DNA from: Isoetes taiwanensis
Taxonomy: Eukaryota > Streptophyta > Lycopodiopsida > Isoetales > Isoetaceae
Length of the DNA stretch: 64,000 nucleotides
Assembly: GCA_021234155.1 (NCBI GenBank)
Contig: JAJEKV010000003.1
Location: forward strand, 30,797,166 to 30,861,165
Direction: 5' to 3'
Of this stretch, positions 5,123 to 62,240 are shown piece after piece. Within the stretch, counting starts at the first letter, position 1, and the number at the start of each line of letters is the position of its first letter. The notes below the pieces were generated by a model. The model worked only from the letters and a program-made list of their open reading frames with translations, searched no databases and was not told the origin of the DNA. Made by a program: the position numbers and the translations under genes.

Positions 5123-6655
5123 TTACAATGTTATATTAACATTTATGCATGGATTCACTTCACTGCATGAATCCTCCTCTGTACTAGGGCTGGCAACGAG
5201 TGCCTCGGATGAAGGAGGAGGCAAATATTCAATAATCTGCTCATGTGCATCATCTGAGAGGCAGAACACACCCTTCTCACCATGTGCAGCCTGCAATTCA
5301 ACCTTTGCACAAACTACAAGGTGTGTATAGCAAGTTGCATCAGGCATATTGTCTAACAGCTCATACTTACCATCTCCGATGAACTTGTAATACTTACCTG
5401 ACAAGATAACCTCCTGCCTGTTGAACTTAGAGCCCCAATAGTCCTTAAATGCATGTTGCACAATGTGCTTAGGTTCAGTGCACTTGATTATCCAAAAATG
5501 CACATTCTCATCATTTCCTTCCTCTGCATTCACAACAAAGTTATCACCTACTTCAACCATTTCTGCTTTCCATTGATTGTCCCCCTCATACTGCACATGG
5601 TGGACAGGAGACTCCTACTCGAAGACCATAAGAATCAAGGTTGACAATGAATAATCTCCAAGCCGAGATGCATGTCTACATTTAGACCATAATTCTCTCC
5701 AACAAAATCTGCAAAAGCATGAGAGATGCCTATGTGCCATTTCAGTTGGCCTATCTTGGCAGTAAGTGTGTGAATCTTTTTTTGTACCTGCTAAAGTATC
5801 ACATTCATATGGCAAATCTCTGTTCACACCACCCAACTTAACAAGCCAGAAGAACCTAAAATAAATGGTTTTGGGTGTAAGAAATAATTTCAATATAAAA
5901 TTACTCAACACTATGGAATAAAACTAATACCTTTGTATGTTGCATTCCTTTGAAGTTTGTTTGCAGCTGAAATAAGAATTGAGAAAGTTGACAACATCTT
6001 CAGAATTCCTTAAGGGTGTGCTGTCCCTTTTAAGCATTTCACTCGTCAATATTCTTTTGATGACAGCTCTAGCCCCGTCATGCTCCCCTTTACCATGTGA
6101 TGTGGCAAAAAAGTTCCACTGCAACTTAATCTCCTTGAGCTTGTAGAATCTGCCTAAGAAGTAGAGAGCTCTAGAAGATTTGAACTGGGAGGCACATCCA
6201 TCAGAACAGAACACATGTTTTGACAAATTAACTCCCCTGCTCAACAAAAACTCGTGATGTTTTTGCAAACAATGCTGGACAAATAAACTGTCATGTTTCT
6301 TGTCGTCCGATATGTAGAAATGCATCTCTTTGACAATTTTTCTGTCACCAATCTTGATGTGTGGGATTTCAGAATCTTCGGCATGTCTGTAAGTGATATG
6401 AACTAGGATGGAACATTGGTCATTATGCCAATGCATGCTTTGGATTTCCTGTTGAACTTTGAAGGAGAAATTCTCGGCAAAATCTATAACAGAAACCACA
6501 GTACCTTTTGGAAATGTTTGAAGACAGTTTTTAAATTGTTCTGCTTGCCACGTAGCTGTGTAATTATGTGGAATGAACTGCTTCATGACAGATTCAGCAT
6601 GAGACATGAACTCGATGTCCGAGCCACTTCTGGGCCCGTCCAACCTCCAACGCAT
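5123..6655 (-). pseudogene. DDE-like transposase of the SHGKG..DG family, exon-split
   Basis: Exon 6655-5938 encodes VVSVIDFAENFSFKVQQEIQ, later VFCSDGCASQFKSSRALYFL and FFATSHGKGEHDGARAVIKR. This order (acidic residue in a DFxENF box, SDG..SQFK, then FFATSHGKG..DG) is typical of a widespread family of uncharacterised transposase-like proteins that I know mainly from invertebrate genomes. A donor (ACAAAG/gtatta) and acceptor (attttag/GTTCTT) join it to 5866-5615, which has a Cys/His-rich tail (LSCFCRFCWRELWSKC). A C-terminal piece (5596-5123) is separated by a stop or frame change near 5605. The N-terminus upstream of 6655 is not resolved. It is convergent with the RING-like gene, so the two may belong to one transposon. 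Terminal repeats were not found. Confidence 0.6.
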
Positions 6656-7288: not shown

Positions 7289-7293
7289 CGTGG

Positions 7294-8937
7294 TGTGACG
7301 TTCCAGCACAGTATACGCTCTCAGAACGTATACCGTACTGCCTCGTCACGCGTACACGCCACCCCGACTGACGTGTACGCCAACGTGTAGCCAGGCTAGT
7401 AGCCCTAGGGGGCAACGTGCAAGGAGTGTGCATTTTGCACATTCACTTAGGTGCACATTTTCCCATGTAGCCACTTTATGCCAAGTGGGTCATACCCTTA
7501 GGTGCAATTAATGTGCACATTTTCCAATGTGCACCTTCATTAATGTGCACACATTTCCATGTGGGCACATTTGGCCACCTAGCCATTAAAGGCAAGTGGG
7601 CCCATTCCCAATTATCCCACATGCCTAAAGGGGATAATTGGAAACCCTAGCCAACCCCATGTCTATTTAGGGAGGGAAACCCTAACTCACCCAATTTTCG
7701 TTTCTAGGGTTCCAGGACTCTGTTTGGGCTGGCCCAAAGGTCAAAACCGCCTCCCAGACGCTGTCTGAGAGAATTGCTTCATTAGTTTTCCTTGATTCGA
7801 GCATCTCAGCAAGATGGTCGAGCTCAGGTCAGGAGGAGGAATTCAAGGATCAGGTATTTAGGCAATTTAATAGTCTAAACCCCATTTCAGTCATAGAATC
7901 AGTAGGTTTAGCCTCTTAAATTGCCCATAGCAGCCCTCTAGATCTCTAGATAGCAGATTCTAACTAAAGAACCTAACTCTATGATGTAGATTAGATCTAG
8001 TTCTTTAGTTCTCTGTGAAGTATATGGATGATGTATCTCTATGAACTCCTTGTATTGGGAAGGGGGGTAGAGACCTAAGGCTTTGTAGTTGATGCTCCTA
8101 GAGTAGCCTCTCTAGCACACTGTAGATTCGGCTTGTGTACAAGAACCACACCTGGTTGTAGGTGAAGGGGCCAGACTGGCTAAGAAGGAGGTTCATGTCC
8201 TGACTCCTGAACGATCCCTCTGGTGTGTAAAGCCTACCAGGGATCATTGTGACTAGGTCTAATGGCTTACCACTGAGTGTGGGTAAGGCATGGGCTCGAC
8301 ACCCGTGAAGTGGTGTTCACTTTCCAGTTGGTTCAGTCGAATACGGGCAGTGGCCCTCTAGTCACCTTGAGTCAGAATGTAGATCTTTGGAGGGAGTGAT
8401 CCCTACCTGCCCCATCAGAACTGGGGAGATGAAACCCAGGAGTAGCCCTCTTGGCTGCGCATCCGGCGGGCTACAGTCAGGTCCTGACACTTTTCAGCCT
8501 ACTCTGCAAAGTGTGCACAGGAGGGGCGGGTGGAGTGGACAACCCTATGCCATGTTCATATGCCAGCCAAATCCATCGCCATGAATTCTGTCTGCAATGA
8601 ACTCTGGAGACCCCAGCCGTCAGTCATCCCCTTGAGCCTGAGCCTTGGGTAGGATTTCCTATGTATATTGTGCTCACCCTTGTCTATGCAGATGTGATGG
8701 ACCACCCTTCGAGGTGGATATATGCTCTTATGTTATATACTGACATGTATGTTTATGCTTCCGCAGCTAGGTAGGCCCCGAGGGAGACGGGGTAGAATGA
8801 CACCTTCACTCTTCCCACTGGGACTCGTTACGGGTGCAGTGATTGTGGAGGGCCCTGTATCAGTATGGAGCTGGTATGGGGGATGAACTCCTGTTTGTAT
8901 ACGGTGAGTGCACCGTATATGAGTAGGGGACGTCACA
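7294..8937 (+). repeat. 5' LTR of E1
   Basis: 1644 bp, termini TGTGACGT / ACGTCACA. A TATA-like TCTATTTAG lies near 7665. A mini-exon with ATG lies at 7814-7853. More than 1 kb of U5-like sequence follows. Two small hairpins sit near the end: CCACC-cTTCGa-GGTGG (8702-8717) and ATACGGTG/CACCGTAT (8899-8918). Compared with the 3' LTR, most of the length is very similar, but roughly bases 12-60 are almost unrelated and a 24-bp indel lies near 7435. Confidence 0.95.
7814..7853 (+). other. LTR-borne leader mini-exon (ATG + 13 codons + splice donor)
   Basis: The ATG opens a 40-nt exon encoding MVELRSGGGIQGS plus one base, followed by GTATTT. Exons of exactly 40 nt at the same place are present in the other LTRs with diverged codons: 19508-19547, 37262-37301, 45429-45468 (minus) and 60807-60846. 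In E1 the phase fits an acceptor AG at 13302-13303 that opens the gag frame. The exon shape is read directly; splicing is inferred. Confidence 0.7.
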
Positions 8938-8938
8938 G

Positions 8939-8950
8939 TGGTATCAGAGC
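8939..8950 (+). promoter_or_regulatory. Primer-binding site for initiator tRNA-Met (E1)
   Basis: TGGTATCAGAGC lies one base after the 5' LTR end. It is the standard plant retrotransposon primer site, complementary to the 3' end of tRNA-iMet. Confidence 0.95.
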
Positions 8951-9145
8951 AATGTTCTTGGCGACCAAGAGCAAAGCACTGACCATGTTCCCAGTAGTAC
9001 TAACTTGATAGGATCCTTAAACCTCGAAAAGTGGGAAAATTTTTTCCCATTTTTGTAGTAGATGCTAAGCTAGTAACATGACTGAAAATATAATGAAAAC
9101 ATAAAAAGACTGAAATTGGTGAGCCAACATCCAAAAAGTAGGGTG

Positions 9146-9212
9146 GTCTCACACGTCGCGCCAGGACAGGAAATGAGATTCTCATTTTCGGGCTGGGCGC
9201 AACGTGTGAGAC
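9146..9212. repeat. Accessory hairpin 1 of E1 (upstream of ORF1)
   Basis: Imperfect palindrome of 67 bp. The outer arms GTCTCACACGT and ACGTGTGAGAC are perfect, the inner arms GCGCCAG and CTGGGCGC pair with one bulge, and the AAATGAGA / TCTCATTT centre pairs too. First of four copies arranged as two pairs. Confidence 0.9.
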
Positions 9213-9346
9213 ATTCAGCTTAAACACACCAAAAAGTTATAAATTACAGAAAATTAACTTGATAATTCTAAATTTGAGTTAAGAATTAGTAGAATTAGCA
9301 TGTTATATGCGTAGAAAACATAAAATCTAGCAGTAGGCCCCACCAT

Positions 9347-9413
9347 GTCTCACACGTCGCGCCAGAGCAGGAAATGAGCTTCTCATTATCGGTCTGGGCG
9401 CAACGTGTGAGAC
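9347..9413. repeat. Accessory hairpin 2 of E1 (upstream of ORF1)
   Basis: Second 67-bp copy with the same outer arms, about 200 bp after the first and about 80 bp before the ORF1 TATA box. Confidence 0.9.
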
Positions 9414-9490
9414 CATGTTTAAATATAGGTGTTTTAGATGTTTTAGGCAACCCAAACAGGTAGTTTGAAGTTTGACCTAAAACCGACCCC

Positions 9491-9498
9491 TATAAATA
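9491..9498 (+). promoter_or_regulatory. TATA box of the ORF1 promoter
   Basis: TATAAATA in the context CCCCTATAAATAGACC, 103 bp before the ORF1 ATG. The same TATAAATAG with a CTCTCC-type leader recurs before ORF2, which suggests separate transcription units inside the element. Confidence 0.7.
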
Positions 9499-9600
9499 GA
9501 CCTAGACCCCCTCATTTTCTCGCGTACCCTGCTTAGAAGTCTGCTCTCCTTTGCCAAGGCGATTTTCTGGCGCATAGCTCGGATCGGCGAACCGTCAAAC

Positions 9601-10866
9601 ATGGCTCGGACAAAACAGACCGCTAGGAAGCCTCGCCAAGAAGAATCATCAAGCGCCCAAGGTCCTGCCCTCTTTCGGAGGATCCTTCAAGAACGCCTTT
9701 TCCGGGAAGACGAATCTTCTTCCAGCGAAGAGGCAGGATCGGAGCAGAGCGATCAGACGGAGATCATAGAAGAAGAGCGGCCGGATATCATGCATCAGAT
9801 TCTCGAAGAGGTCGCCGAGGAGGAGAAGAGGGCCAGGGAAGAGCAAGAGCAAAAAGAGCAGTCGACAGTCGAAGAACAACTCCAGACTGGGACCCATCGG
9901 CAGGAGGAGGAAGGGAGAGAAGAGCAGCGGCAGCCGACGCTTAGCCCTGCAGAAGAAGCAGACCTCGCGGCATTCATCAGCAAGTATGAAGCCAAAGAGC
10001 GCCGCCGGGAGCAGAGGACGAAGGACCGAGAAGACGACCCAACCACAGCCAGCGGGCCAAAGAAGAGGAAGGCCAAAGCTATTAAGGCGGGCAAAAGAAA
10101 AGTTGTGAAGGTTGGTAAACGAGCGACGGGCCCCGTCATCAACGAGCCATCAGGTGAACAGACCCCGCCTTCTACTGACGACGCGGACGAGGACTACGTC
10201 CCCAACACAGAGGGGGCGAGTTCGTCAAAACCCCCGCCCGTGAAGAAGGAAGTACCCCAGCAAGTGGCACCTGAGCAGGTAGCACAGGAGCAGGAGGAGC
10301 CCGGACAGGCAGTGAAGCCCCCACCTTTCCCGACGCGGGATAGAGTTAAAGCCCCGCGACCCCAACAGGAGGCGTACGTGATAGACCCGGTCAAGGTCTA
10401 TCAGAAGAGGATCAAGGAGCACAACACCTATATGGAGAAGTGGGAGGCGTACAATGCTTACTACCAGGAGCACAGGGTGAGAGCAGTCGAAGGTGGAGTA
10501 CCCTCGAAGCAGACTCTGAAGCCACCCCCACCAAAGCCCAAACCTCCCAGAGCGCCAGGGAAGAAGTGGACCAAGAGCAAGCAGAAGGAGCAGAGAGCCC
10601 TCAAAGAAATCCGGCACTTCCAGCGGAGTTACAGACTCTTGATCCCCCGGGCACCGTTTCAACGTTTGGTCCGTGAAGTCATTCAGGAGTACAACACGGA
10701 CATGCGCGTGACCGACGAGATGATGTTGTGCTTACAGGAGGCAGCAGAGGCAAAAATAGTGCAGCATTTTGAAGATTCGACAGCCTGCACGGTACACGCA
10801 AAGAGGGTCACCCTCATGAGGCAGGATATGCATCTTGCCAGACACATCAAGGGAGAACGCCCTTGA
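9601..10866 (+). CDS. ORF1: giant histone H3-like protein encoded by a retrotransposon
   Basis: An intact 421-codon frame starting at an ATG in good context (AAACATGGCT). Residues 1-10 are MARTKQTARK, the exact N-terminus of histone H3 including the K4 and K9 sites; residue 11 is Pro where H3 has Ser10. Residues about 37-115 are a Glu-rich, probably coiled region. Residues 153-177 are strongly basic with PKKRK and KAGKRKVVKVGKR, a likely nuclear signal. A Pro/charged linker follows. Residues 333-421 align without gaps to H3 residues 47-135: ALKEIRHFQRS, PFQRLVRE, TDMR, LQEAAEA, HFED, VHAKRVT and ARHIKGERP. By hand count about 50 of 89 positions match plant H3. Loop 1 has the canonical H3 length, unlike most CenH3. 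K56 and K79 positions are Arg and Asn. Ordinary H3 is about 136 aa, so about 320 residues separate tail and fold. The protein probably acts in the nucleus, in or near nucleosomes; function is inferred. Confidence 0.93.
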   Translation: MARTKQTARKPRQEESSSAQGPALFRRILQERLFREDESSSSEEAGSEQSDQTEIIEEERPDIMHQILEEVAEEEKRAREEQEQKEQSTVEEQLQTGTHRQEEEGREEQRQPTLSPAEEADLAAFISKYEAKERRREQRTKDREDDPTTASGPKKRKAKAIKAGKRKVVKVGKRATGPVINEPSGEQTPPSTDDADEDYVPNTEGASSSKPPPVKKEVPQQVAPEQVAQEQEEPGQAVKPPPFPTRDRVKAPRPQQEAYVIDPVKVYQKRIKEHNTYMEKWEAYNAYYQEHRVRAVEGGVPSKQTLKPPPPKPKPPRAPGKKWTKSKQKEQRALKEIRHFQRSYRLLIPRAPFQRLVREVIQEYNTDMRVTDEMMLCLQEAAEAKIVQHFEDSTACTVHAKRVTLMRQDMHLARHIKGERP

Positions 10867-11009
10867 GATTTTGTAAATAACTGAAATTTTTGTTAATATA
10901 AAGAATTTTGTGAGTAAATAATGTGTCTAATCTAGCTTAATTAAGTTAAGTTATAGAATTCCAGCTTTTATTTTGGTTAAATTGGAGTTTTTGAGCAAAC
11001 TGAGACGAT

Positions 11010-11076
11010 GTCTCACACGTCGCGCCAGGACAGAAAATGAGATTCTCATTTTCGGGCTGGGCGCAACGTGTGAGAC
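11010..11076. repeat. Accessory hairpin 3 of E1 (upstream of ORF2)
   Basis: 67-bp palindrome nearly identical to the copy at 9146, outer arms GTCTCACACGT / ACGTGTGAGAC. Confidence 0.9.
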
Positions 11077-11208
11077 CATGCCCAAAAATGCCCAAAACAG
11101 CTCCAAATCGACCAAATAAAGGGTCAATTCTGCCTAACTCGACGAGTTTAGTAGAAGTACAGCCTTAAATCACCCAAATTGATCAAGTTTAGCCTATTTA
11201 GAGCCCAT

Positions 11209-11275
11209 GTCTCACATGTCGCGCCAGGACAGAAAATGAACTTCTCATTATCGGTATGGGCGCAACGTGTGAGAC
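11209..11275. repeat. Accessory hairpin 4 of E1 (upstream of ORF2)
   Basis: Fourth copy, with one change in the left arm (GTCTCACATGT). The two hairpins are again about 200 bp apart, as in the ORF1 pair. Confidence 0.88.
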
Positions 11276-11464
11276 CTCGTGACATTTCTTCACCATGCCA
11301 TACCTAAATGATCTCCCAATTGTTGCAATAGGTTCATTAGTCCATTCTAGCATGCTCAAACCCTAGAAGTAGTCTTCAAACTCGCAATTGCACCCTTTAA
11401 TAGATCAGAGTCATCCAATCCTAGTAAATTCTAGATCATCCAAAAATTAGGGTTTTCCCCTTTC

Positions 11465-11472
11465 TATAAATA
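11465..11472 (+). promoter_or_regulatory. TATA box of the ORF2 promoter
   Basis: TATAAATA in CTTTCTATAAATAGGCTCC, 121 bp before the ORF2 ATG and matching the ORF1 promoter in motif and spacing. Confidence 0.68.
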
Positions 11473-11585
11473 GGCTCCCCATTTCTCATTTAGCACCTTG
11501 CAAGTTTGCTCTCCACTGCTTAGGCAATCTTCCAGCTCCTTGAGGCACTTCTGCATCCGTCTGATACTCTCTTCTTCGCTAGATC

Positions 11586-13123
11586 AATGGCCACTGCTGA
11601 CTTCAGGCGATGATACAGCGCCAGTGCCCATGCTGCTGAGGAGGATGTCGATGACATCTTCCGAGTCTTCGGGAAAGAAGTAGATGTGCAAGCTACTCTG
11701 AATGCAACCCCAGCATACAGACAAGTCCTAGCAGAATTCCAAGCTAGGGTAGGACCCTCCCTTGTCCAGCTCCCCCCCTTGCATAGGTTATTTTGTACCC
11801 CGCCCATCCCTTCAAGCAGCCTTGGGTGATGTCCCCAACATCGCCAAGTACCTAACTAATAAGGCGCAGAGGCTACCCGACTACATGGTCCTGACAGCTA
11901 ACAGGACCAAGTACTTCTCCTACACCGCCGCCCTTGCTATTTTCCTATCCCACCGCGCCGAAAATCCATTGGGGGCGACCTCTATCCCTCCCATGGAAGT
12001 GGACCCCATAGCAACCCGAGCAGAAGAGCAGATGCTTTTGCAGTACCAGCAGGAGCAAGAAGGAAGGGAAGAAGAAGAGGAGTCGGACGACGAGGAGTAC
12101 ACGGAGCTCGACTCAGACGAAGAACGGCGCCAAGCGGAGGAGGAGTTGGCCAACATGGAGCGGAGCCGGCAGACCCTTAGAGTCGCTCCCCCACTCGGGC
12201 TAGGCATCACAAGCCTAGACCCAATCATCATCGACAGAGAGGAGTATCTACTCCTCAGTGACATTCAGAATCTTCCCGAATGCAGGGAGAGGGAACTCCG
12301 ATTGGATGAGCTGCTCCACCAACTACGGCAGTCCGACCTGGACGACTTCATCGTCCGAGGAGCCTCGGACATTCCACTTCAAGTCAGGGAAGCCGACACT
12401 TATACAGGAGAGTCGACCTCCGACATCCAAGCCTACGGCAACATCAGGCAGATCATGGAGGCAGACCGAGCCGCAAACAGACTACCAACGGAGGAAGAGT
12501 TCCTTGCTCTACAGGAACAGATGAGGATCAGAGGCAAGACTACCAGCATCTTAATGCCGAGGCCTTCGACACCACCTCCAACAAGAGGAGCAGGAATTGA
12601 CCTCAGGAGAGTCGACTCCACAATTCAAGATTACCGGGAGCTGACGGAGATAGAGGTCGACGAATACGCGGGGCGGCACAGAGCTGGAGGCCAAACAAGC
12701 GGAGAAGCTTCGGCGACACACAACGATAGGTCGCTCAGGTACTACTTGCCGCTGCTGCTGGATGGGAGAATAGCGGTAGTACACCGCAAGTTCAGCCCCC
12801 GGGGAGAAGAAGGAGTCTTCATGCTCATTGCACTCTCAGGCTTCGGCAGGCATGCTCGAATAGCGGCAAATGTCGACTATGCTGTCCTGGTAAAGAGAGC
12901 AATGGCACTAGACCTCTTCGACCTCGCCGTGCCCCACCGACGGCAGGGAAGACTAGCAGTAGCCGCAGCACTCACATCTGACCGCAGAGTCGAAGACTTG
13001 GCAAGAGCCTTGCAGGGCGGCTCGTCAGCCAATGTCCTCAGGAACTTGGGTCAATCGGTAGGAACGGCCCAAGTTAAAAAGTTCCTCGAGGACAACCCGT
13101 CTTACCGGCGATTTCAAGACTAG
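11586..13123 (+). pseudogene. ORF2: acidic accessory protein of unknown function, one stop and one frameshift
   Basis: The ATG at 11586 is followed by a TGA at 11610-11612 (CGA TGA; could be a CpG C-to-T change). The frame then continues (EEDVDDIFRVFGKEVDVQAT) until a frame change near 11790. The second frame runs open to 13123 (VPRPSLQAALGDVPNIAKYL...). Features are an E/D-rich stretch at about 12050-12170, a motif APPLGLGITSLDPIII, the box IQNLPECRERELRLDELLHQ, and a helix-rich C-terminus. A clear homologue lies in E3 (63017-63688) with the same acid-rich stretch and APPLGLGITSL motif. It shows no histone fold and no enzyme signature I recognise. Its conservation between elements suggests a function in the element's life cycle. 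Confidence 0.8.
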
Positions 13124-13303
13124 TTAGACTCTTGATCCCGGAGACTTTTTGTACTAAAATATTATATAATATAAATATGATTTCTGTTGCACTTTAAATG
13201 CCTTGTCAATATATTTTGTCCCACAACTATGTCAACAAACCGCATGTAATGCAAAAGAACAAGTTAAACTAACTATATAGCCATGAATTACTTGTGCATG
13301 CAG
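13124..13303. other. Spacer ending in a putative gag splice acceptor
   Basis: An AT-rich spacer ending CTTGTGCATGCAG at 13303. The gag frame has no ATG until about 13408 although it is open and Gag-like before that, so an upstream start supplied by splicing is plausible. The pyrimidine tract before this AG is weak. Confidence 0.5.
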
Positions 13304-14784
13304 TTAGAGGCCTAGGTGCGGGAGAACAACAACGCCAAGACCTTAGGGAGGAACGGAGTCCGCCAAGGCCACGTCCAGCAAGGAACCTGTTTGAGGAATT
13401 CGGACCCATGACCCCAGAGGAAGAAATATCCCAGATGAGGACGGACCTTGAGCAGATAAAGGCTTTGCTGGCCGCACAAGCAGGAGCGGCATCTGTGGGC
13501 AACGCTCAACTGCCACAAGCATCAGCTCGGAAAACAGGAAGGGACAAGAAGAGGAGCAAGAGAGGGAGGTCCCCTAGCTCGGACTCCTCCGACTCAAGCT
13601 CAGATTCAGACTCCGACTCCGAGGAAGAAGAAAAGCAGCCCCAAGAACAAACAGATGGAAGGCAAAGGAACATTGCAGAGGGACGACAAAGGGACACAAG
13701 AACCTCTGACTACCAGAAGAAGGTAGACTCTGCATTGGGGAATGTTTGGAAGGCCAGGAAACTCGAGCAATTCTCAGGCGAGAACAGGTCAGGCATGGAG
13801 GCAGAGACTTGGCTCGATGAGATGAGTGAATATGGCAACACTTATGGTATGAAGGACAAGGATAAAGGAAGGGTGGCAACAGCCAACCTGAAAGGAGCAG
13901 CACACATATGGTGGAAGGGGTATGCAAAGGCCCATGGCTTGAGCAGGGATGCTTGCAGGTTCAAGAAGTTTGCTAAAGCCTTCAAGCGCCATTACGTCCC
14001 AAGAGAGCACAAGTCCAGCATGATGCAGCAGTTCTATAGGCTCCAACAGGGAAACAAATCAGTCCAGAAATATACAGAGGAATTCATGAGGCTGAGGCTG
14101 TATGTGCCAAAGTTAGGTGAGAAGCATGCAGTAGAAAGCTACATTGAAGGCCTGAATGAGGAGATCCGCAAGCTTGTAAGGGCAATAAATCCTAAGACAG
14201 TATCAGAAGCAGAGTCCAAGGCAATAAGCTTGCAAGGAACGGGACCTCAGAATAGCGGGCAGAGGCAGCAGTATTATCAGGACAAAGGCAAGGCAACAGG
14301 GAGTTATAGCCCTAGGGCAGCCAGCCCAGGTCCAGCTAGAGCCCCATATGGTGGCAATCAGGGGAAGCAGCAGGAGAAAAAGCAGGTGTCCTTCAAGGAC
14401 AAACAGGAGGGGTCAAACTACTCCAAAGCAGTGCGATCCTTTTTGCAGGCTATGCCCAAGGAAAAGAGACAGGAGTGCATAGAAAAGCAGCTTTGCTTCA
14501 GGTGCTTCCAGCCAGGGCATAGGACAGCGAACTGCCCCTACGTCATGAGTGCAGCGTTAGCGGAGTTGGGAGATTGGAACATCCTGTCTGACGACGACGG
14601 CGAGGAAGCCCGCGACTACATTCAGGGTGAGTGTCATATCTTTGCCGCAATAGATACAGAGCAAGCAGAGAGCCAGTATAAAGTAATTTCCACAGTAAGG
14701 AAGGCCAAGGACAAGTCCTTCATAGTCCTGATAGATTCAGGAAGTAGCCATAACTTTGCATCCCCCAGAATGGTTCAGCGTTGA
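13294..14784 (+). CDS. Gag with zinc knuckle, running into protease (E1)
   Basis: Open frame with no initial ATG. An acidic/Ser-rich N-terminus precedes the retrotransposon gag core ([54 protein letters not shown]). A CCHC knuckle [14 protein letters not shown] follows near 14493-14534, then the start of the aspartic protease with its DSGS active site ([14 protein letters not shown]). The frame ends at a TGA (14782-14784) just after DSGS while the downstream frame continues the protease fold, so a one-base deletion is likely. The real N-terminus is probably the LTR leader joined at 13304. Confidence 0.88.
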
Positions 14785-17700
14785 AGTTGAAACCACTAAA
14801 GTCAAAGCCAAGACCCGTTGTCTTAGCAAGTGGAGCAGTAAGGCAGACGACAGGCAAGAGAATTAACTTTGACATCGATTTGCCAGGGATTAATATCCAG
14901 ATAGGGGCAGAAGTAATGGGTATTGGCAAGTACGACTTGATCATAGGAATGGAGTACCTTGGACCAGCAGGGGCCATTATTGATTGTGGAAAGCGGAAGG
15001 TGACCTTCCCAACACCCGACGGCAAGATCATTGAGATCACAAGTAAAGAAGTTGTTCCCATCATGCAGTGTATATCTTCTAAACGGCTATTCAAGTGCAT
15101 CAAGAGCGAACAGGTGTCATACGTCTTCAAGCTTGAGATTAGTGAGCCGGAATCGGAAGAAAGCAAAGAAGACAAGGTGCTCAGCAAGTTGCCGAGGCAA
15201 ATAGCTAAGCTGGTCACAGAGTTCCATGATCTCTTTCCAGATGAGATCAAGCAGCTTCCTCCTTATAGGGGAGTCGAGTGTGAGATAGCACTCGAACCAG
15301 GAACAAAGCCGACAAGCAAGGCTCCATACAGAATGACGACGCAGGAATTGACGGAGCTAAAGAAGCAGTTGCAGGAGCTACTCGACCTAGGCTTCATTAG
15401 GCCTAGCGTCTCGCCGTTTGGAGCACCCATTCTTTTTGTCAAGAAGAAGGATGGATCTTTGAGGATGTGCATAGACTATAGGCAGTTGAACAAGCACACC
15501 ATTAAGAACACGTATGCGCTCCCCAGATCAGATGACTTGATGGACTAACTCCAAGGTGCAAAGGTCTTCTCCAAAATCGACTTAAGATCAGGTTAGGATA
15601 AAGGAAGAAGATATCCATAAGACCGCCTTCAGAACGCGGTATGGGCATTATGAGTTCACGGTAATGCCTTTCGGCTTATCGAATGCCCCCGCGACGTTCA
15701 TGAGGCTCATGAACGACATCTTCAGGGAGTTTTTAGACACCTTTGTGATTGTATTTTTTGATGACATTTTGGTGTATAGCAGATCCCTTGAAGAGCACGT
15801 ACAACACTTAACGAGAGTGCTAGAGAAGTTGAAGAGGCACCAGTTGTACGCCAAGTTGTCGAAGTGCCACTTCGCAACGGAGAAGGTGGAATACCTAGGT
15901 CATGTGATCTCAGCAGAAGGAATCTCGACGGATCCTGCCAAGATTGAAGCCGTCATTCAGTGGCCGGCGCCGAAGAATGTGCATGAAGTCAGACGTTTTC
16001 TCGGTCTAGCAGGGTACTACAGGAAGTTCGTGAAGAACTTTGCTAAGATAGCGACTCCGCTAACAGACTTGACGAGGGCGGAGAAGGTAAAAGATTGGGC
16101 AGAGCATTGGCACAAGAAAGCCCAAGCAGGGTTTGAATTGTTGAAAGAGGCTTTAACAACCGCCCCAGTCCTAACCCTGCCAGACCCAGAGAAAGATAAG
16201 CTTGTAGTCACATATGCGAGTAAGATAGCTACAGGTGCGGTGCTTATGCAAGAAGAGCATGTGGTAGCGTATGACTCCAGGAAGATGAACGACGCCGAAA
16301 CGCGCTACCCAACGCATGATCAGGAATTGCTTGCGGTTGTCAGGGCATTAAGAATTTGGAGGCACTATCTTTCCAATTGGATACAGACCATCAGAGCCTC
16401 CAGTATGCGTATTCACGCAACCACACCTCAACCTGAGGCAGAGAAGGTGGATGGAGTTCCTTGAAGAGTACGACTTTGATATAGTCTACAAGCCAGGGAA
16501 GCTCAACGTGGTAGCGGATGCGCTTTCAAGGCATCCCCTGACAACTAGAGTGCATTGCAATGCAATTTCGACAGTCTCCAGCGAATTTGGTAAGAAGATT
16601 GAAGAGTCCTTGCCAACGGATGTGGATTTCAAGGAAGCATGGGAAAGCCTCTATAGGGAGGCTAGAACAGACAAAGAACGGGAAGCCTTCAAGCATTATA
16701 AGAAGGAAGGCAACCTGTTATATCATAAGAACAAGTTGTGCGTACCTGAATCATCAGGGATAAGGAAATTGATCCTCCATGACACGCACAACAGCCCAAT
16801 AGCTGGCCATGCGGGATTCATAAAAACATATTTCAAAGTGCGCAACAGCTATTATTGGCCAGGAATGAAGAAGCAGGTAGCTCGCTACATCAGGGAATGT
16901 CAGCTATGCCAGCAGACAAAGGCAGAGCAGCTTCGAATTCCAGGGGCATTAGAGCCATTAGCGGTGCCAAATGCTAAGTGGGAGGTGATCATCAGCATGG
17001 ATTTCATCACAGGGCTCCCAAGAACAGTAAGATGGAAAGATGTCTTGATGGTAGTGGTCGACAAGTTGTCGAAAATGGCACATTTTGTGCCCTGCAGGAC
17101 CACAGATACGGCTATGGATACAGCAAAGCTCTTCACCAAAGAGATCTTCAGGCTTCATGGCATGCCAAGGGAGATTATATCCGACAGGGATCCGAAGTTC
17201 ATGAGTGCCTTTTGGCAAGACCTCTTTGCGACGATTCAGACCAAGCTATCCATGAGCACGGCATATCATCCCCAGACGGATGGCCAAACGGAGCGGACCA
17301 ACAGGATTTTAGAGGACATGCTACGAAACTATGTCTGGAATAAGCAAGGTATGTGGGAAGAATTTATTCACTTGGTGGAGTTTGCATACAATAGCACCAA
17401 GCAAGAATCACCCCAAATGTCGCCGTTTATGATCAATTACGGCTATCAGTGCCTAACTCTAGACACTTGGCACAATCCCATGTCAAAAGTGGAAGTTTCG
17501 CAGCAAATGTTGGCCGATATGCAACAGCTCGTGGAAGAGGTTCGAGGGTATCTGCTAGCAGCAAGAAGTTGACAAAAGAGCATCGCCGACAAGCATCGAA
17601 CAGTCAGAGAGTTCCAAGTTGGAGATGATGTATGGCTCAAGATCAAGGTAAAGCAGACGAAGCTCCGCATTGGCAATTGCAAGAAGCTTGCTCCAAGGTG

Positions 17701-18094
17701 GGCTGGACCTTTCAGAATAGTCAAGAGAGTAGGTAATCAATCCTACAGGTTGGATTTGCCAGCACCCCTAAAGATTCATAAGGTCTTCCACGTGAGTCTG
17801 TTGAAGAAGCACACTCCAAATCCAGACGAAGTCTTGGACTCTCCAACGTTGTTGGAAATGACGGAGGAGCAGCTGGAAATAGTTCCAAAATTGATTCTTG
17901 ATAAAGCTTTCAAGAAAACAAGGAGGTCGGAGTTCCTCCAATACTTGGTCAAGTGGAAACACTTGCCAGTGGAAGACGCAACATGGGTACTCAAGAAAGA
18001 TTTAGTAAAGCAGTACCCACAGTTTATGGAGCAATGGGATGGCAAGGTCATCTCCGAAGAAATCGGCTCAGGCATGTCGATTTGTGTAGATTAA
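14781..18094 (+). pseudogene. Pol of E1: protease, RT, RNase H, integrase, chromodomain (multiply broken)
   Basis: 14781-15548 holds the rest of protease ([11 protein letters not shown]) and the RT start ([20 protein letters not shown]). There is a TAA at 15546-15548 and a small deletion near 15590. 15664-16464 has [12 protein letters not shown] and the RT active box [10 protein letters not shown], then RNase H. The usual first RNase H aspartate (DAS) reads Tyr ([13 protein letters not shown]). A frame change occurs near 16455. 16451-17572 is integrase: H2C2 finger (HDTHNSPIAGHAG ... CQLCQQ), then catalytic D, D and E (SMDFITGL, SDRDPKFM, TERTNR). A TGA at 17570-17572 precedes the GPY/F-like module (KLAPRWAGPFRIVKRVGNQS) and a chromodomain near 17890-18045 (SEFLQYLVKWKHLPVEDATW). 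Inactive as it stands. Confidence 0.93.
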
Positions 18095-18963
18095 TTCTAT
18101 GTATAGTTAAGATTAATCTACGCATGCAACCTATGCTAGGTATGGGTCGCATGCGTTGTTACCGATGATGGGACCACTATGGTGATCTCTAGGGCGTGGT
18201 GTAATGTCAATGTAGGCATGACCGCGTTTTCGCTTGGGTGAGTGGAAGGTAGATTAGAAAGTCTACTTCTGTCCCACGAAAGTAGACGACGTCGAGAGAA
18301 AGGAGGTCATTAAGGAATGCATTGATAGGAAAGGCACCTTTAGCCCCATATATGCTTTGATAGGAGGAATCTATCCTTCACGCCCCCCACGCGGGAAGGA
18401 TATCCTCCACGCTGGGCAACTAGAGGTGTAGGCATGAGCGGCATATAGGCATATAGGTGATGTCTCCTCGGCCATTATGGAAGATTCATCCTCTTCCTAC
18501 GCCGGGAGATTAGCCATGCATCCACGTAGATAGGTGGGGTGGTCACCATATAACCAAAATTTTATTAATAATTAAATGGTACTAACGTAGTGTCGACCTG
18601 CAGGCCAATAGAGCGCTCCGGAGGGCAAGGAGGTCGAGCTACGAAGACTTGCAACACAAATTTTGTTGGAAGGTGTTGCAAGGAATGAAGAGTACCTCGA
18701 ACGCTAATTTAAAATTTGGATAAACTAATTGTCGTGATAAGTAAATTATTGAGTAACTTTTTTTCATGATGTTGGGAATCGATAAGGTATTCCATAATAT
18801 AACGGCGTAATAATGTCTAAAAATGTTACCCTAAGGTAATCCTAATAAATGTCTAAGCATAATAATAATATATTGTATGTATGAGGTTGATTGCAGGTTA
18901 TGAAGATCCCAAGGTGGGGAGACCCACGATGCTGCGGACAGCATCATTTCAAGGTGGGGAGAA
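18095..18963 (+). other. 3' untranslated region of E1 with duplicated polypurine tract
   Basis: A non-coding 870 bp, partly conserved in E2 at 35780-36870. AAGGTGGGGAGA occurs at 18911 and again at 18951 directly before the 3' LTR. Between them GATGCTG-cgga-CAGCATC forms a 7-bp stem. The second copy (18951-18963) is the polypurine tract by position. Confidence 0.85.
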
Positions 18964-20619
18964 TGTGACGTTCCAAAGACAAGACATGCCCCGGGGCGAT
19001 ATACCGCATCTTGCCTGCGTCCGCGTACCGCCACCCCACCGACGTGTATGCCAACGTGTAGCCAGGCTAGTAGCCCTAGGGGGCAACGTGCAAGGAGTGT
19101 GCATTTATTAATGTGCACATTAAACCATGTGCACATTCACTTAGGCGCACATTTTCCCATGTAGCCACTTTATGCCAAGTGGGCCATACCCTTAGGTGCA
19201 ATTAATGTGCACATTTTCCAATGTGCACCTTCATTAATGTGCACACATTTCCATGTGGGCACATTTGGCCACCTAGCCATTAAAGGCAAGTGGGCCCATT
19301 CCCAATTATCCCACATGCCTAAAGGGGATAATTGGAAACCCTAGCCAACCCCATGTCTATTTAGGGAGGGAAACCCTAACTCACCCAATTTTTCGCTTCT
19401 AGGGTTCGGGACTCTGTTTGGGCTGGCCCAAAGGTCAAAATCGCCTCCCGCATCGCATGCGAGAGAATTGCTTCATTAGTTTTCCTTGATTCGAGCATCT
19501 CAGCAAGATGGTCGAGCTCAGGTCAGGAGGAGGAATTCAAGGATCAGGTATTTAGGCAATTTAATAGTCTAAACCCCATTTCAGTCATAGAATCAGTAGG
19601 TTTAGCCTCTTAAATTGCCCATAGCAGCCCTCTAGATCTCTAGATACTTAGATTCTAACCAAAAAGAACCTAACTCTATGATGTAGATTAGATCTAGTTC
19701 TTTAGTTCTCTGTGAAGTATATGGATGATGTATCTCTATGAACTCCTTGTATTGGGAAGGGGGGTAGAGACCTAAGGCTTTGTAGTTGATGCTCCTAGAG
19801 TAGCCTCTCTAGCACACTGTAGATTCGGCTTGTGTACAAGAACCACACCCGGGTTGTAGGTGAAGGGCGACCGGCTAAGAAGGAGGTTCATGTCTCGACT
19901 CTGAACGATCCCTCCGGGTGTGTAAAGCCTACCAGGGATCATTGTGACTAGGTCTAATGGCTTACCACCGAGTGTGGGTAAGGCATGGGCTCTCACACCC
20001 GGAAGTGGTGTTCACTTTCCGGTGGGTTGATCGAATCGCGGGCAGGGGCCCCTCTAGTCACCTTGAGTCAGCATGTAGATCTCTGGAGGGAGTGATCCCT
20101 ACCTGCCCCATCGGAAGTGGGGAGATGAAACCCATGAGTAGCCCCTCTTGGGCAGATCCGGCGGCTCTGATCCAGTCCCGACACTTTTTAGCCTACTCTG
20201 CAAAGTGTGCACAGGAGGGGCGGATGGAGTGGACAACCCTATGCCATGTTCATTTGCCAGCCAAATCCATCGCCATGAATTCTGTCTGCAATGAACTCTG
20301 GAGATCCCAGCCGTCAGTCATCCCCTTGAGCCTGAGCCTTGGGTAGGATTTCCTATGTAACCCTTGTCTATGCAGATGTGATGGACCACCCTTCGAGGTG
20401 GATATGTGCTTATGTTATATACTGACATGTATGTTTACGCTTCCGCAGCTAGGTAGGCCCCGAGGGAGATGGGGTAGAATGACACCTTCACTCTTCCCAC
20501 TGGGACTCGTTATGGGTGCAGTGATTGTGGAGGGCCCTGTATCAGTATGGAACTGGTATGGGGGATGAACTCCTGTTTGTATACGGTGAGTGCACCGTAT
20601 ATGAGTAGGGGACGTCACA
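18964..20619 (+). repeat. 3' LTR of E1
   Basis: 1656 bp with the same termini, leader mini-exon (19508-19547) and UUCG-type hairpin (20386-20401) as the 5' LTR. Its first 60 bp after TGTGACGTTCCA differ strongly from the 5' LTR. Confidence 0.95.
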
Positions 20620-20624
20620 CGTGG

Positions 20625-48790: not shown

Positions 48791-51700
48791 AAAAACAATG
48801 AAGGAAGGAAGGAAAGAAGTATATTTTAACTTCCATGGAGGCCAACTGGCCTATGAGACGGTCACAATACAATACATCAGATAGTATCCAAACACAAAAG
48901 AAAACCACAAAAGCCCTATACAATGTGTCTTTACCACTGGGACGAAAAAACCCCCCATGTGGGAGGGAAAACCCTTGTACTAGATGTTCAAATTCCCTAT
49001 CTGGGCGCTCAAATTCCTTGTGTTGTGAGGGACTCTCTGACGGTGGAGACTTGCAGAATGTAGGATGCAAGACGTGCAACCATAGTGAAGCCAGCAATTG
49101 ATGAATTGCTATCTCAGAGCATCTGCGATCGGGATGAGCTGCTCGGATGTGTGCATATGCCGGACACTCCTGTAGAGCATGGTGTTCATCTTCTACTATC
49201 TGCATGTGGCAACACTGGCATAGTCTCTCATGCCGGGGGATTCTCTGCCCTCCATCCGTACCCCAGCAGGCTGTCTCAATTCTGAGATGGTGGGACCCTG
49301 TCCTCATTGCAGCTATGGCTCTCCGTTTCTTGGTAGAGATGTATGCCTTCAATTATCGGTGTGGGCCATGTTCCAGCGACGGATTAACCTGCGTGTGGTA
49401 GTGCTCTGTTTTGGGCTTTGCAAGAGTAAGCACATCCCACAGAGAGGCAGCAAAGCGCTCATTCAAATGCAGCTCCTGTTCCCCGATATCTGGTATAGCC
49501 ATAATTTGTTGATAGTCTATGGACCATCTTGCGAACCACCCCTTACAATGCTCCTGCCACACTCTCTTCAATCGTTGTGGCCCTTGTGCCAATAACAGAG
49601 CCCGGGGAGGGAGACGTTGTGCATCCATTCCGTCAACCTTATGGAAATACGCAAGGTGCCTGCGCATAGCAGAATGCTGCAGGGGCCAAAAACCCGTCTC
49701 ATACAGCAAAATCGGATAAGGCACCGTGTCCCTGATGCCTAGGCTGTATGTCAAGAAGGCCTTCTGTACCTCTCTAGCTTATCCCAGGTGTTCTTGCTAA
49801 TCGCTGGACCTCAGACCTCTACCCCATACAGCAATACTGGTTCAATGAGTGCTCTGAACAGGTGTTCTTTGCGTGCCCAATCGCAGAGACCTATTCTGTA
49901 ACAGCTATTCTGCGGGCTTTCCATCCCGCGCTGACCCTTCTTTCTACACAGTCATCCCATAGCATGTTAGCAGAAAAATCGATTCCCAGATACTTAAAGG
50001 TCCTTACAACATCCATCCTTTGTCCTCTGTAATAGAAGTCTGAGATATCATGCTGCGCCGCAGTGTTGTTAAAAAACCCCGTTTTTAACCATAGAGTACT
50101 TCTTAAAAAACCCCTACGTTTTCTAAACGTTTGCAACCATCGGGGGTTATCAAAAAATATAAAAAAAAAAAAAAAAAACCATTACTAATGCCTTGAATGA
50201 CTTTCATTTAGATTTTCTAGTCTAGCAAACAAGATTTTGGAACTATAAGCCGCCGCATGCATGTAGAAACATATTGAATGCATGTAGAACCAGGATTTTG
50301 GTTTTTTGCTCAATGAAAGAAAGGTTTTTACTCCACCATGCAAACCAGGAAACAGTTCTTGCGGCAATCCAAGACCAGTCGACCAAGGTAACTTTTTCAT
50401 TCTTCTTCTTTTACAACTAATTTTATTTCGATTCATTTTTTTCTATATTGCTTTTGAAGATCTGACTGCCATAAGTGACAAATAGAAGCAGGAAGTGACC
50501 CAAAACCGTTCCAAAGCTATAGCTGCTTCAAATAATTCTTTGTTACCTATATTCATTTCTCTTCTATCTACCTCTAGTATGATAATAAGCTAAACATTTA
50601 TGTTAGATGTTATATTATTAAGTTAAACCTTTGAATTGAATACACATTTTTGTGATTTGATTGGAACCCAAATATGGTGCTGGTATTAAAAAATGTTATA
50701 TAATCTGTTTCAAAGGGGCAATTTGGGGCTTTTAAAGTTTTTTTTTATGTTTTTTACGTTTTTAACGTTTGCAACGTTTTTAACGTTTTTAATGTTATAA
50801 AAACGTATTCTAAGATTTTAAAAACCAAAAATAAAAAACTTAAAAAAAACTTAAAAAACGTATGGTACCCGTACGGTATGCAAAGTATTTAACAACATTT
50901 CCAGTAGCTGCGCGGACAGGATTGCCAGTAGCTTGGTTTTCTGCTAGTTCACGGTCATTCCTGCTATTCACAGAATCCACTGAGAGCGTCCAAATGTTCC
51001 TGCATACTCCTAGATGTATGGGACAATAAGCCCACATAGTCTGCATAGAGCAACTGTTTTATTGTATATGCCTCTGGCAACTGTGGGCCACCACCTCCAT
51101 GTTCTTGCATCCATGTCTCCAACTTGTCAATATAGAGTCCAAAAAGCATTGGAGATAACGGACATCCCTATTTAACACCTATGGTGCTACTCACTCGGTG
51201 ATCTGACGCAGGCAAAGTGGCATATATTCCGTCATAGAGCATGTAGATGGCAGTTTGCAAGTCCCGTGGGACATGTAGCCTCTGCAAGCGCTGCCACAAT
51301 AGGTCTCGAGGGACCGTATCATATGCCGTCTTAAAATCCACGAAACAGCAATACAAGTCACGTCGTGCATTGCGGCTAGCTTCTATAAGAATTCCGGGAG
51401 TAAAAATATGGTCAATCGTGGAGTGGACATGGCGAAAACATGCCTGGCCAACTGCACGTACTCCAGTTTCCTCAGCCCACTGTGTTAACTTCTTCTCCAG
51501 CACACCTGCTAGAAGTTTTGCGAGTAATGGGCTCAGCATAATCATACGGTAGTTGGTGGAGTCATCCCTACTTCCTGTCTTATGAATAGGGGTGACCTTG
51601 CTAACCATCCATTTCTGTGGGAGGCCCTCTCTAATGGCCTGATTGATTATCACTGTCAAAGGCCCTAGCAAAGCTGGTCCACCCCATTTCAACAGCTCGG

Positions 51701-53106
51701 CCTGAAGTCCTTGCAAGTCCTTTGCTTTACCATTAGCAAGATGTCTAAGACCCTGGTGGATGTCCTCCTCTAAAAGCTGTAGCGTTTCTCCTAGCTGATC
51801 TGGTACCTCAGCGATCGCTCCTGGGGGGTCATACAACTCCCCTAACCGTTTTCTCCACTGGTCTGAGGTAACATTGCCCGGTGGTTGATGCCTCTTATAC
51901 AACACTCTACGCCAAAACGCCTTTGGCTCAGTCATCAGCAGATCAAACATGCGCTGCTGATTTTCTGCAATATACCGATGCTTTTTGGATTTCAAGAATG
52001 CCTTATAGTCCCTAATGGCATGTTGCCAGAGCTGTGGATCTAAAATGGGGTGTAGCTGGCTCTTTAGAGCCTTACATTCGGCGTCAAACCAGGGGTTCTG
52101 AGGGAATTGCGCAGTGTCCCTTCGCGGGGGCTTTCTTGCTGCAAAGCATTCACTAGCTGCTGCGAGTAAGGCCTTCACCAACCACTCACACTTATCATGC
52201 AATGTATAGAGGGCATCAATCCCTTGTAGCTCACGTTCAAGCGCAACCTCATATCCTGCTTGCTTCCGATAGTTCGGGGTGTATCCCAAACCCCGAGAGC
52301 GTCTATCTTGTGGCCACGCCATTTCCAAAGTGACATAAAGTTGATAGTGGTCTAACAAAGTCTCTTCATCTCTTGTTCTTTTGCCTCGCGAAATCTCTAA
52401 TCATATCAAGTTCTGGCACTGAAGCTAGGAAAGTCCACCACGCTGGCTCCACCATCGTATCAGTCGCTTCTACAAAAGCCTCATGATCGCTGCCATCTGA
52501 GCATACCATTGCAGATCACCATGTCAAAGATCTGGCAGAACTGGACCAACTCTTTTCCAAAGGCTCTAGAGACTGTATCCTGGGACCGTCTTGCATGCTG
52601 GGGCGCACCTGTCTCTAGCCAAAGTGGATTGGAGTCAGCATTTTCCTGGAAGGTGACCGACTGACCCTGTGCCGTATGTGCATTGAAATCTCCTAATAAA
52701 AACACATGACCCTCTTGGCGATACTGCTCTATGTCATCATACAGTTCCCTATAGGGCATATGCACATCTATATCTGCCTGATGAACCCTGAAGTTTCATG
52801 GGGTATATAACATCCTACAATAAACAGTGGGCGATGGTGAGGCTGCAACACTCGTATCCACAGGTAGCGGTTGAGTCTATCAGCCTTGTGGAGCGAGACT
52901 ATGGATGCTATAGCATCTTTGAAGTAGCACGCGACTCCTCCATACCCTCGCTTGCCATGGCACTCATTAGCCAGTGAGAAATGATGGTACCCTGGGATGT
53001 CCGGTAACAGATGAGCACTATATTCCCATGTCTCTTGCAAGAAGATGATGTCCATGCCTGTAGCAACTTCAGCAATGCCCTCGCCTCGCTTCCATCCATC
53101 TATCAA
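48768..53106 (-). pseudogene. LINE (non-LTR retrotransposon) with endonuclease and RT, broken
   Basis: Minus-strand order from 53106 leftwards. The AP endonuclease part has IIFLQETWEYS and GYGGVACYFKD (53106-52768), then FLLGDFNAHTAQGQ (52765-52481). The RT part (52358-51168) has WMVSKVTPIHKTGSRDDSTN, YRMIMLSPLLAK and LYCCFVDFKTAYDTVPRDLL. The active-site block near 51060 reads LLYADYVGLLS, where YADD is usual. After an 834-bp insertion, RTFKYLGIDFSANMLW follows (50136-49891). The 3' part (49352-48768) has a Cys/His pattern CQCCHMQIVEDEHHALQEC like the reverse-transcriptase zinc finger. ORF1 was not found. Confidence 0.85.
50064..50897. mobile_element. Small non-autonomous element with 10-bp terminal inverted repeats inside the LINE
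   Basis: TGTTGTTAAA at 50064 and TTTAACAACA ending at 50897 are perfect inverted repeats. The sequence between is AT-rich with repeated CGTTTTTAACGTTT units near 50755-50800 and an A-tract at 50161-50178. The LINE coding frame resumes on both sides. No clear target duplication was found, so the family is open. Confidence 0.6.
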
Positions 53107-61955: not shown

Positions 61956-61956
61956 G

Positions 61957-61968
61957 TGGTATCAGAGC
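61957..61968 (+). promoter_or_regulatory. Primer-binding site of E3
   Basis: TGGTATCAGAGC one base after the LTR, as in E1 and E2. Confidence 0.94.
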
Positions 61969-62176
61969 ATGATCTTGGTAGACCAAGGTCGAGCACTGAC
62001 CATTTTTCCCATAGGACTAACAGTAGACTTCAAGTCTTGGGAATAGCCACCCAAGCATGAACCTCAAAAATTGGGAAAAAATTTTCTAATTTCTAGTGCA
62101 TAAAATAGGTTAATGCTAAAGTTAGTAGTAAGTTTTAGCAGAAACCCAACCAAAATTGCACAAAAAGAGGTGACCC

Positions 62177-62240
62177 CTCACAAAGTGCGCCCAGACCAAA
62201 TCTGCCCATGCTCGGATTTGCTCCCCGCGCACTGTGTGAG
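62177..62240. repeat. Accessory hairpin 1 of E3
   Basis: Arms CTCACAAAGTGCGC and GCGCACTGTGTGAG pair with one mismatch. The inner CAAATC / GATTTG also pairs. The GCGCC(C)AG core is shared with E1. Confidence 0.88.

Follow-up and report, generated by a model that had tools for sequence, protein, structure and literature searches.

In this study, we analysed a 64,000-nucleotide stretch of the Isoetes taiwanensis genome (contig JAJEKV010000003.1), in the following called the window, and found that a complete Ty3/gypsy chromodomain LTR retrotransposon at 7294-20619 carries an intact gene for a giant histone H3-like protein. A preliminary description of this DNA had proposed such a retrotransposon gene, and fold, anatomy, copy number and selection now support it. 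The element represents an H3-bearing clade of Ty3/gypsy chromodomain retrotransposons, whose H3 was presumably captured from the host. The encoded protein ends in an H3 fold, its gene occupies a fixed position in many element copies, and purifying selection acts on the fold and, in the lineage of the window copy, also on an exact H3 tail. This constraint on key parts suggests that the element may use its H3 to work on host chromatin.

The earlier claim of a complete LTR element with target duplications was borne out, with CGTGG on both sides. The following features were assigned to the element:

7289..7293, no strand: 5′ target-site duplication CGTGG, with the same five bases at 20620-20624
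7294..8937, plus strand: 5′ LTR, with the ends TGTGACG...CGTCACA
8939..8950, plus strand: tRNA-type primer-binding site TGGTATCAGAGC, exact in 28 of 30 copies
9146..9212, no strand: first of four near-perfect palindromes of 67 nt (RNA fold z -7.1)
9347..9413, no strand: second palindrome, 67 nt (RNA fold z -7.6)
9491..9498, plus strand: TATAAATA (TATA) box upstream of the H3-like ORF, exact in 28 of 30 copies
11010..11076, no strand: third palindrome, 67 nt (RNA fold z -8.8)
11209..11275, no strand: fourth palindrome, 67 nt (RNA fold z -7.0)
11465..11472, plus strand: TATAAATA (TATA) box upstream of ORF2, in 27 of 30 copies
11588..13123, plus strand: accessory ORF2, about 510 aa, broken near its start here, with a long open piece at 11753-13123
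13294..14784, plus strand: gag (Pfam Retrotrans_gag and Ty3_capsid; zinc knuckle below the cut-off)
14754..18094, plus strand: pol region with RT, RNase H and integrase (Pfam), with stops and frameshifts in the window copy
17894..18040, plus strand: C-terminal chromodomain of the integrase (PF00385, E 2.4e-10)
18951..18963, plus strand: purine tract AAGGTGGGGAGAA before the 3′ LTR, identified by eye
18964..20619, plus strand: 3′ LTR
20620..20624, no strand: 3′ target-site duplication CGTGG

The order gag, RT, RNase H, integrase and chromodomain is that of Ty3/gypsy elements. The two LTRs are 92.95% identical over their aligned part (7329-8937). For the protease, only a weak match at the gag end was obtained in the window element (E 0.088), while a match above the cut-off was found in the related lineage C described below. 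Both the H3-like ORF and ORF2 are located between the primer site and gag, each below a TATA box and a pair of palindromes, and a third TATAAATA is present at 13170, ahead of gag. Over about 277 bases, the regions upstream of the two ORFs match each other at about 72% and thus look like duplicated promoter modules. The position of the H3 gene between primer site and gag was therefore described correctly, with the addition that ORF2 (11588-13123) also lies between the H3 gene and gag. ORF2 gave no match in Pfam, and its predicted structure has a mean pLDDT of 33.8. In the window copy, ORF2 and gag-pol are interrupted and the H3 ORF is whole.

The H3-like ORF and its parts are located as follows:

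9601..10866, plus strand: giant H3-like ORF, 421 aa (ORF list, Pfam, solved H3 chains, omega)
9601..9630, plus strand: exact H3 tail MARTKQTARK, corresponding to H3 residues 1-9 after Met
9631..10599, plus strand: charged and proline-rich linker, residues 11-333 (323 aa)
10057..10122, plus strand: basic stretch PKKRKAKAIKAGKRKVVKVGKR, a putative nuclear localisation signal, residues 153-174, identified by eye
10387..10488, plus strand: conserved helical block within the linker, residues 263-296
10600..10863, plus strand: H3 histone fold, residues 334-421 (PF00125, H3 alignment, omega)

The frame of 421 codons beginning with MARTKQTARK is uninterrupted in the window copy, as had been stated. 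The profile search proposed in the preliminary description gave a significant match to the Pfam family Histone (PF00125) at residues 307-417 (E 2.1e-27; 96.2 bits at a cut-off of 26.4). Against solved H3 chains, the last 88 residues aligned gap-free over 87 residues, with an H3.3 as best match (E 7.9e-27). The gap-free fold with about 50 of 89 matches counted by hand was likewise confirmed, since 47/88 residues are identical to human H3.2 and 49/88 to a plant-type H3. Between tail and fold, about 320 charged residues had been said to replace H3 residues 11-46; the length is right (323 residues, 11-333), while the replaced stretch comprises H3 residues 10-47. Thus, the canonical tail is kept for residues 1-9 only, and the window protein does not have the full tail of residues 1-47. 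Within the linker, 78% of the sites at residues 261-300 are identical in at least 29 of 30 copies, and the helical block reached block means of pLDDT of 74-92 in the predicted structure. The prediction for the H3-like protein as a whole is poor, including the fold (mean pLDDT 54.9).

More copies, which the preliminary description had suggested looking for, were found in the same genome. In 1,658,258,908 bases on 1,110 contigs, a loose first look with the window protein gave 16,028 candidates, and all of the 99 places that were scored match, which is a lower bound for the window lineage. They comprise the window itself and 98 others with 70-88% identity; 14 further rows are second pieces. For comparison of the surroundings, the 30 copies matching the window protein best were used. 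Read in the right orientation, all 30 have the leader and the spacer behind the ORF, 29 have the LTR end, 28 have ORF2 on the expected side, and 28 have the exact primer site. No in-frame stop occurs in 23/30 copies, a set chosen as best matches and not at random and hence biased towards intact ones. Ten elements were read over 17 kb each and have the order LTR, leader, H3, spacer, ORF2, gag, pol, LTR with some exceptions; gag-pol follows downstream in the same orientation in nine of the ten. At L002, an element of lineage C on the opposite strand stands where gag-pol would be, at L005 about 6.8 kb of other DNA lies in the spacer before ORF2, and at L003 about 6.7 kb of other DNA lies inside pol. 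LTR pairs could be compared in seven of the ten elements, the stretches read at L002, L003 and L005 containing no pair, and are 92.6-96.7% identical; L010 has an additional 241-base piece at 98.3%.

Using a degenerate pattern, 1,051 genomic sites coding exactly for MARTKQTARK were detected, versus none for the reversed pattern and versus 15 host-type H3 matches in the same genome. Together with the 99 matches at 99 scored places, this led us to reject chance as an explanation. Most of the 1,051 sites lie beyond the 15 host-type matches and the 99 scored places and may be further copies of the window lineage or belong to other lineages. The 15 host-type matches (96-98% identical over residues 1-136) were obtained with an ordinary H3 as query, for which 150 of 9,022 candidates were scored. 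The same search gave 135 further matches with 71-86% identity, 133 of which begin after residue 10. Many of these 135 are located in frames of more than 400 aa.

Selection was estimated from pairs of the 30 copies. Pooled NG86 values of omega are 0.15 (whole ORF), 0.03 (residues 1-10), 0.18 (residues 11-320) and 0.05 (residues 331-421), codon counts excluding cells with gaps, N or stops. As such copies may be methylated and prone to CpG mutation, a control for mutation context was included, with context-dependent rates estimated from noncoding DNA at these loci, namely the leader, spacer and LTR (spacer alignment without L005, L018 and L020; LTR alignment without L003, L010, L016 and L028). 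In this control, synonymous sites change about 2.5 times faster than noncoding sites, and the plain NG86 values are therefore probably too low. The context-corrected omega is 0.05 for the tail (residues 2-10), 0.09 for the fold (334-421), 0.35 for the linker and 0.28 for the whole ORF. Relative to the noncoding expectation, amino-acid changes occur at 0.15 in the tail, 0.22 in the fold, 0.86 in the linker and 0.71 overall. Hence, tail and fold are under purifying selection and the linker is much looser. Synonymous variation among the 30 copies affects eight of the nine tail codons that follow Met; 26 copies have the exact ten residues. When the window was compared with ten copies, omega was 0.19 for the H3 ORF, 0.09 for its fold, 0.12 for ORF2, 0.16 for gag, 0.18 for PR-RT, 0.14 for RT-RNaseH, 0.13 for INT and 0.10 for the chromodomain; constraint on the H3 ORF and its fold thus matches that on gag and pol in these elements. 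Since decay after insertion raises omega, the constraint in active copies is probably stronger.

Two further groups of H3-like proteins with long N-terminal parts were found. Lineage C is represented at L032, by one of the 135 folds noted above, in the opposite-strand element beside copy L002. Its H3-like ORF codes for 414 aa, starts with MANTKS, is without the H3 tail and ends in an H3 fold with 71/88 residues identical to human H3.2. The order H3, ORF2, gag, pol is known from one element, read in L031/L032, whose 5′ end lies beyond the stretch read; the protein following its H3 ORF is homologous to ORF2 (E 3e-8). All 101 scored places for lineage C in the genome match (11,302 first-look candidates). 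L032 and L051 differ with a dS of 0.573 and a dN of 0.074, and in the fold alone with a dS of 0.514 and a dN of 0.023. A homology search with ORF2 gave one protein, P0220, which matches the ORF2 homologue of lineage C with E 4e-9.

Family B comes from a protein database and is known from proteins alone. These proteins consist of MARTKQTARK-x-TGGK, a linker, KPHRYRAGT and an H3 fold. In P0098, the linker comprises about 290 residues with the recurring words LTLPTSPAHVTTTE, and 73/88 fold residues are identical to human H3.2. The database search that yielded family B gave 410 matches, 120 of them listed; in a search with the linker only, 8,000 candidates were scored and 1,290 protein clusters reached E 0.001 or better, with PF00125 present in 114 of the 120 matches listed. 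From 220 proteins, 188 were picked by a linker motif, 151 of them with and 37 without the exact tail. A search of the Isoetes taiwanensis genome with P0098 (105 scored of 9,440 candidates) did not find family B; it gave ordinary H3 and fold-centred matches, with 51-56% identity at best where they reach into the linker. Family B is therefore taken to come from another source. No relative was found in the viral contigs scanned.

By eye, the linker of family B is located between about H3 residues 14 and 37 and that of the window lineage between 9 and 48, so that the insertions of both tailed families fall within the same part of H3. K4 and K9 are also retained in both, and S10 has been lost. Residue 10 is P in 25 and T in one of the 26 window-lineage copies; among the 151 family-B proteins it is N in 96, D in 50, S in two, and H, G and K in one each. 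A common origin of the two linkers received no support when they were aligned alone with hhalign (probability 0.2%; 28 of 30 copies versus 63 of 87 family-B proteins, those that could be cut by a motif). Full-length profiles of the two families align at 99.8%, carried by tail and fold. The N-terminal part of lineage C (two rows) reached only 0.5% and 3.0% against the two other families. In a fold tree of 29 rows (eight of the 30 copies, ten family-B proteins, two of lineage C and nine ordinary H3s), the window lineage forms one clade (100/100), as do the two lineage-C rows (100/99), and family B is not separated from ordinary H3. The fold thus does not decide between one capture and several. 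One capture is favoured by the H3-ORF2 order and the ORF2 homology, which the window lineage and lineage C have in common.

Sites of histone function were compared with lists of residues from the nucleosome structure. All seven residues presumed to form the H3:H3′ bundle (C110, H113, R116, D123, L126, A127, I130) are kept in the window lineage, and likewise in P0098 and L032. At the 15 positions presumed to contact DNA, eight residues are kept in the window lineage (R69, R72, R83, K115, R116, V117, T118, M120) and seven are changed (49, 53, 56, 63, 64, 84, 86), three of the seven arginines among them. The chaperone-recognition site 87-90 reads EMML in the window copy and EMLL in the seven other copies of the tree, AAIL in P0098 and FAIL in L032. 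Because this site is unlike that of host H3, ordinary chaperone deposition is doubtful for the window lineage; given the seven bundle residues, pairing with H4 may well be preserved in this fold, and its DNA binding is perhaps altered. The roles proposed in the preliminary description (entry into nucleosomes, marking of element chromatin, steering of integration, decoy) have to be qualified, since the window lineage has not kept the chaperone site, 7 of 15 presumed DNA contacts are changed, and in a sister lineage the fold occurs without the tail. For the same reason, namely the tail-less lineage C, tail display is not the common function. Also, we considered whether the integrase reads the element's own methylated tail. 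Three aromatic residues of the chromodomain cage are named in PMC3350952, and by hand alignment the element's chromodomain is without two of them, which makes such reading unlikely.

In plants, the silencing of retrotransposons works through marks on the H3 tail. The explanation that we prefer, with a probability of roughly 0.5, is that the protein is a chromatin-docked H3 variant used by the element against silencing or for targeting. It would be expressed from its own internal promoter, enter the nucleus after removal of Met, pair with host H4 via the H3 fold and engage chromatin. The nine-residue tail, with K4 and K9 present and S10 removed, would be displayed on a flexible arm of about 320 residues. 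Thereby, the element-encoded variant could alter the way in which chromatin at the element or at its new insertion site is handled by silencing enzymes and readers; alternatively, it could tether the integration complex to that chromatin. In lineages without the tail, docking would occur by the fold alone. The match to PF00125, the gap-free H3 alignment, the kept bundle, the low omega, the TATA box and the basic stretch speak for a chromatin-docked variant. Against it stand the changed chaperone site and DNA contacts, the tail-less lineage C, the linker changing at 0.86 of the noncoding rate and the poor predicted structure. A further step, which we put forward tentatively, is that the captured H3 may serve as a chromatin-writing part that docks in nucleosomes and in some lineages presents an S10-less tail on a 300-residue arm. 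If so, element chromatin would be read differently from host chromatin, and retroelements would have built a counter-defence from a nucleosome component, with different tails tried across lineages.

Next in rank, and rather unlikely in our judgement, is a soluble decoy that stays outside nucleosomes and floods the nucleus with H3 tails, weakening the silencing of the element; it might target H3K4/K9 methyltransferases, PHD or chromo readers, or H3-H4 chaperones. Selection on an exact tail whose variation is mainly synonymous would suit this function, as would a long and charged linker, the altered site 87-90, the alteration of several DNA contacts and the loss of S10 in both tailed families. 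An H3 fold would not be required for a decoy; here, however, it is under as much constraint as the chromodomain and has kept the presumed H3:H3′ bundle, and in lineage C it is present without the tail.

It is improbable that the H3-like protein, perhaps together with ORF2, serves in packaging, acting as a DNA-binding protein of the histone-fold type that condenses the RNA or cDNA of the element or escorts it into the nucleus. The location of the gene upstream of gag with its own TATA box would fit, and so would the 8/15 presumed DNA-contact positions that are kept. Selection on the exact tail is left unexplained by packaging, an H3 fold by itself is without its H4 partner, and the zinc-knuckle matches in gag, although below the cut-off, could already serve this purpose.

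A functionless fragment of host H3 that is merely carried along has very little probability. Transposable elements do capture H3 repeatedly, and the hAT copies of Pseudocercospora fijiensis are dead according to PMC6710886; the linker, moreover, changes at nearly the noncoding rate. Frames open in 23 of the 30 copies (a biased set of best matches), a corrected omega of 0.05-0.09 in tail and fold and the same gene order in two lineages of one genome argue against such a passenger, and the control with noncoding DNA of the same copies led us to reject a neutral one. A host H3 gene beside the element or an assembly join, either of which the preliminary description had named as a refutation, is itself refuted and has practically no probability, as a single target duplication encloses the element in which the ORF stands between primer site and gag, and 28-30 of 30 copies have the same surroundings; nothing was found in favour of either.

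A retrotransposon that encodes an H3 with K4 and K9 under selection and S10 lost makes counter-silencing by a nucleosome component directly testable. Which part of H3 matters can be asked in a natural experiment, offered by families that differ in their linkers and in having or lacking the tail. If the element proteins are made, counts of histone genes, antibodies to H3 residues 1-9 and ChIP in Isoetes taiwanensis may be affected.

Several known systems can be compared. The fold motifs IRHFQ, LLIP and RVTLMR resemble plant CENH3. CENH3 has a longer loop 1 and a divergent tail. In contrast, the protein described here has no lengthened loop 1, as seen from the gap-free H3 alignment, starts with the exact canonical tail and is encoded by a multicopy transposable-element gene.

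With the plant chromodomain Ty3/gypsy elements described in PMC3350952, the element shares Gag, RT, RNase H, integrase, a C-terminal chromodomain and a tRNA-type primer site. It differs from them by two extra ORFs below TATA boxes, one of which is the H3 fusion, and by four 67-nt palindromes, all located between primer site and gag.

Single viral histones include H3 of a xenomavirus and of the Dishui Lake phycodnavirus and H4 of a bracovirus, the last of which joins host nucleosomes; phycodnavirus H3-like proteins have extensions of about 170 residues (review PMC9145170, also for the following). For single viral H3s the review reports SAIL and TAIL at the chaperone site, expects that they act with host histones by forming nucleosomes with them, and regards SAIL as likely to permit either deposition pathway, provided that the tail allows it. 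As in our case, these are single core histones encoded by a parasite, several with a lengthened N-terminal part, and AAIL of P0098 and FAIL of L032 resemble the viral SAIL and TAIL. Fold identity is 73-87% for six single viral H3s versus 53% for the window lineage. Unlike in the viral H3s covered there, the extra residues are inserted between an exact H3 tail and the fold, and the carrier is a retrotransposon; the main text of PMC9145170 contains no words beginning with retrotranspos or retrovir.

The closest precedents are fungal and concern hAT DNA transposons: the H3L genes carried by such elements in Pyrenophora tritici-repentis (PMC3538342) and the H3-like copies found within them in Pseudocercospora, Cercospora and Sphaerulina (PMC6710886), two capture events that are treated as separate. 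As there, a transposable element captured an H3 coding sequence and multiplied it across the genome. The Pyrenophora copies are described as very similar, recently expanded and represented by ESTs (PMC3538342), and extra H3 copies of the other fungal clade were inactivated by RIP (PMC6710886). The element in Isoetes taiwanensis is not a hAT transposase gene between terminal inverted repeats; the ORFs scanned with Pfam gave no match to a hAT family, and LTRs, RT and integrase are present instead. Unlike in the fungi, the H3 is carried here by a plant LTR retrotransposon, has a tail-linker-fold design, occurs in diverged lineages and is under measured purifying selection. The preliminary description knew of no LTR retrotransposon with an H3 gene; in agreement, none with a histone gene was found in full-text searches of an open-licence library, outside which most subscription papers and bioRxiv preprints fall, and the fungal hAT capture is in print. 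Thus, capture of H3 by transposable elements was already known, and what appears to be new is its occurrence in LTR retrotransposons, the tail-linker-fold design, the presence in more than one lineage and the measured constraint.

ORF2, the second accessory reading frame of the main element, was matched by no Pfam family, and its omega of 0.12, obtained by comparing the window with ten copies, indicates purifying selection. Homologues of ORF2 were found in lineage C, a related element type with an H3 fold lacking the MARTKQTARK tail, and in P0220, one database protein from a 2,007-base contig. Each accessory ORF (H3-like and ORF2) is preceded by one pair of near-perfect palindromes:

9146-9212, palindrome, 67 nt
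9347-9413, palindrome, 67 nt
11010-11076, palindrome, 67 nt
11209-11275, palindrome, 67 nt
11588-13123, ORF2, approximately 510 aa

All four recognisable palindrome starts are kept in 24 of the 30 best-matching copies of the H3-like ORF in the same genome, and a function as promoter, insulator or small-RNA source is possible.

Close to the end of the window, part of a related second element was observed (60801-63688). In it, TGGTATCAGAGC comes after an LTR-like end, and there is also an ORF2 relative with 45% identity, ahead of which no H3-like ORF was recognised. Further open frames were also present in the window:

5924-6655, minus strand, 243-aa open frame, which may be a piece of another repeat
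51168-53106, minus strand, open frames resembling, by eye, pieces of a non-LTR retrotransposon

In the I. taiwanensis genome, exact MARTKQTARK is encoded at 1,051 DNA sites, most of them without lineage assignment.

Among the 30 best-matching copies, divergence at synonymous sites of the H3-like ORF is approximately 2.5-fold that at noncoding positions within these loci. Along the element, dS declines from 0.47 in ORF2 to 0.23 in the integrase (window versus ten copies). A possible cause is recombination between subfamilies or constrained noncoding DNA.
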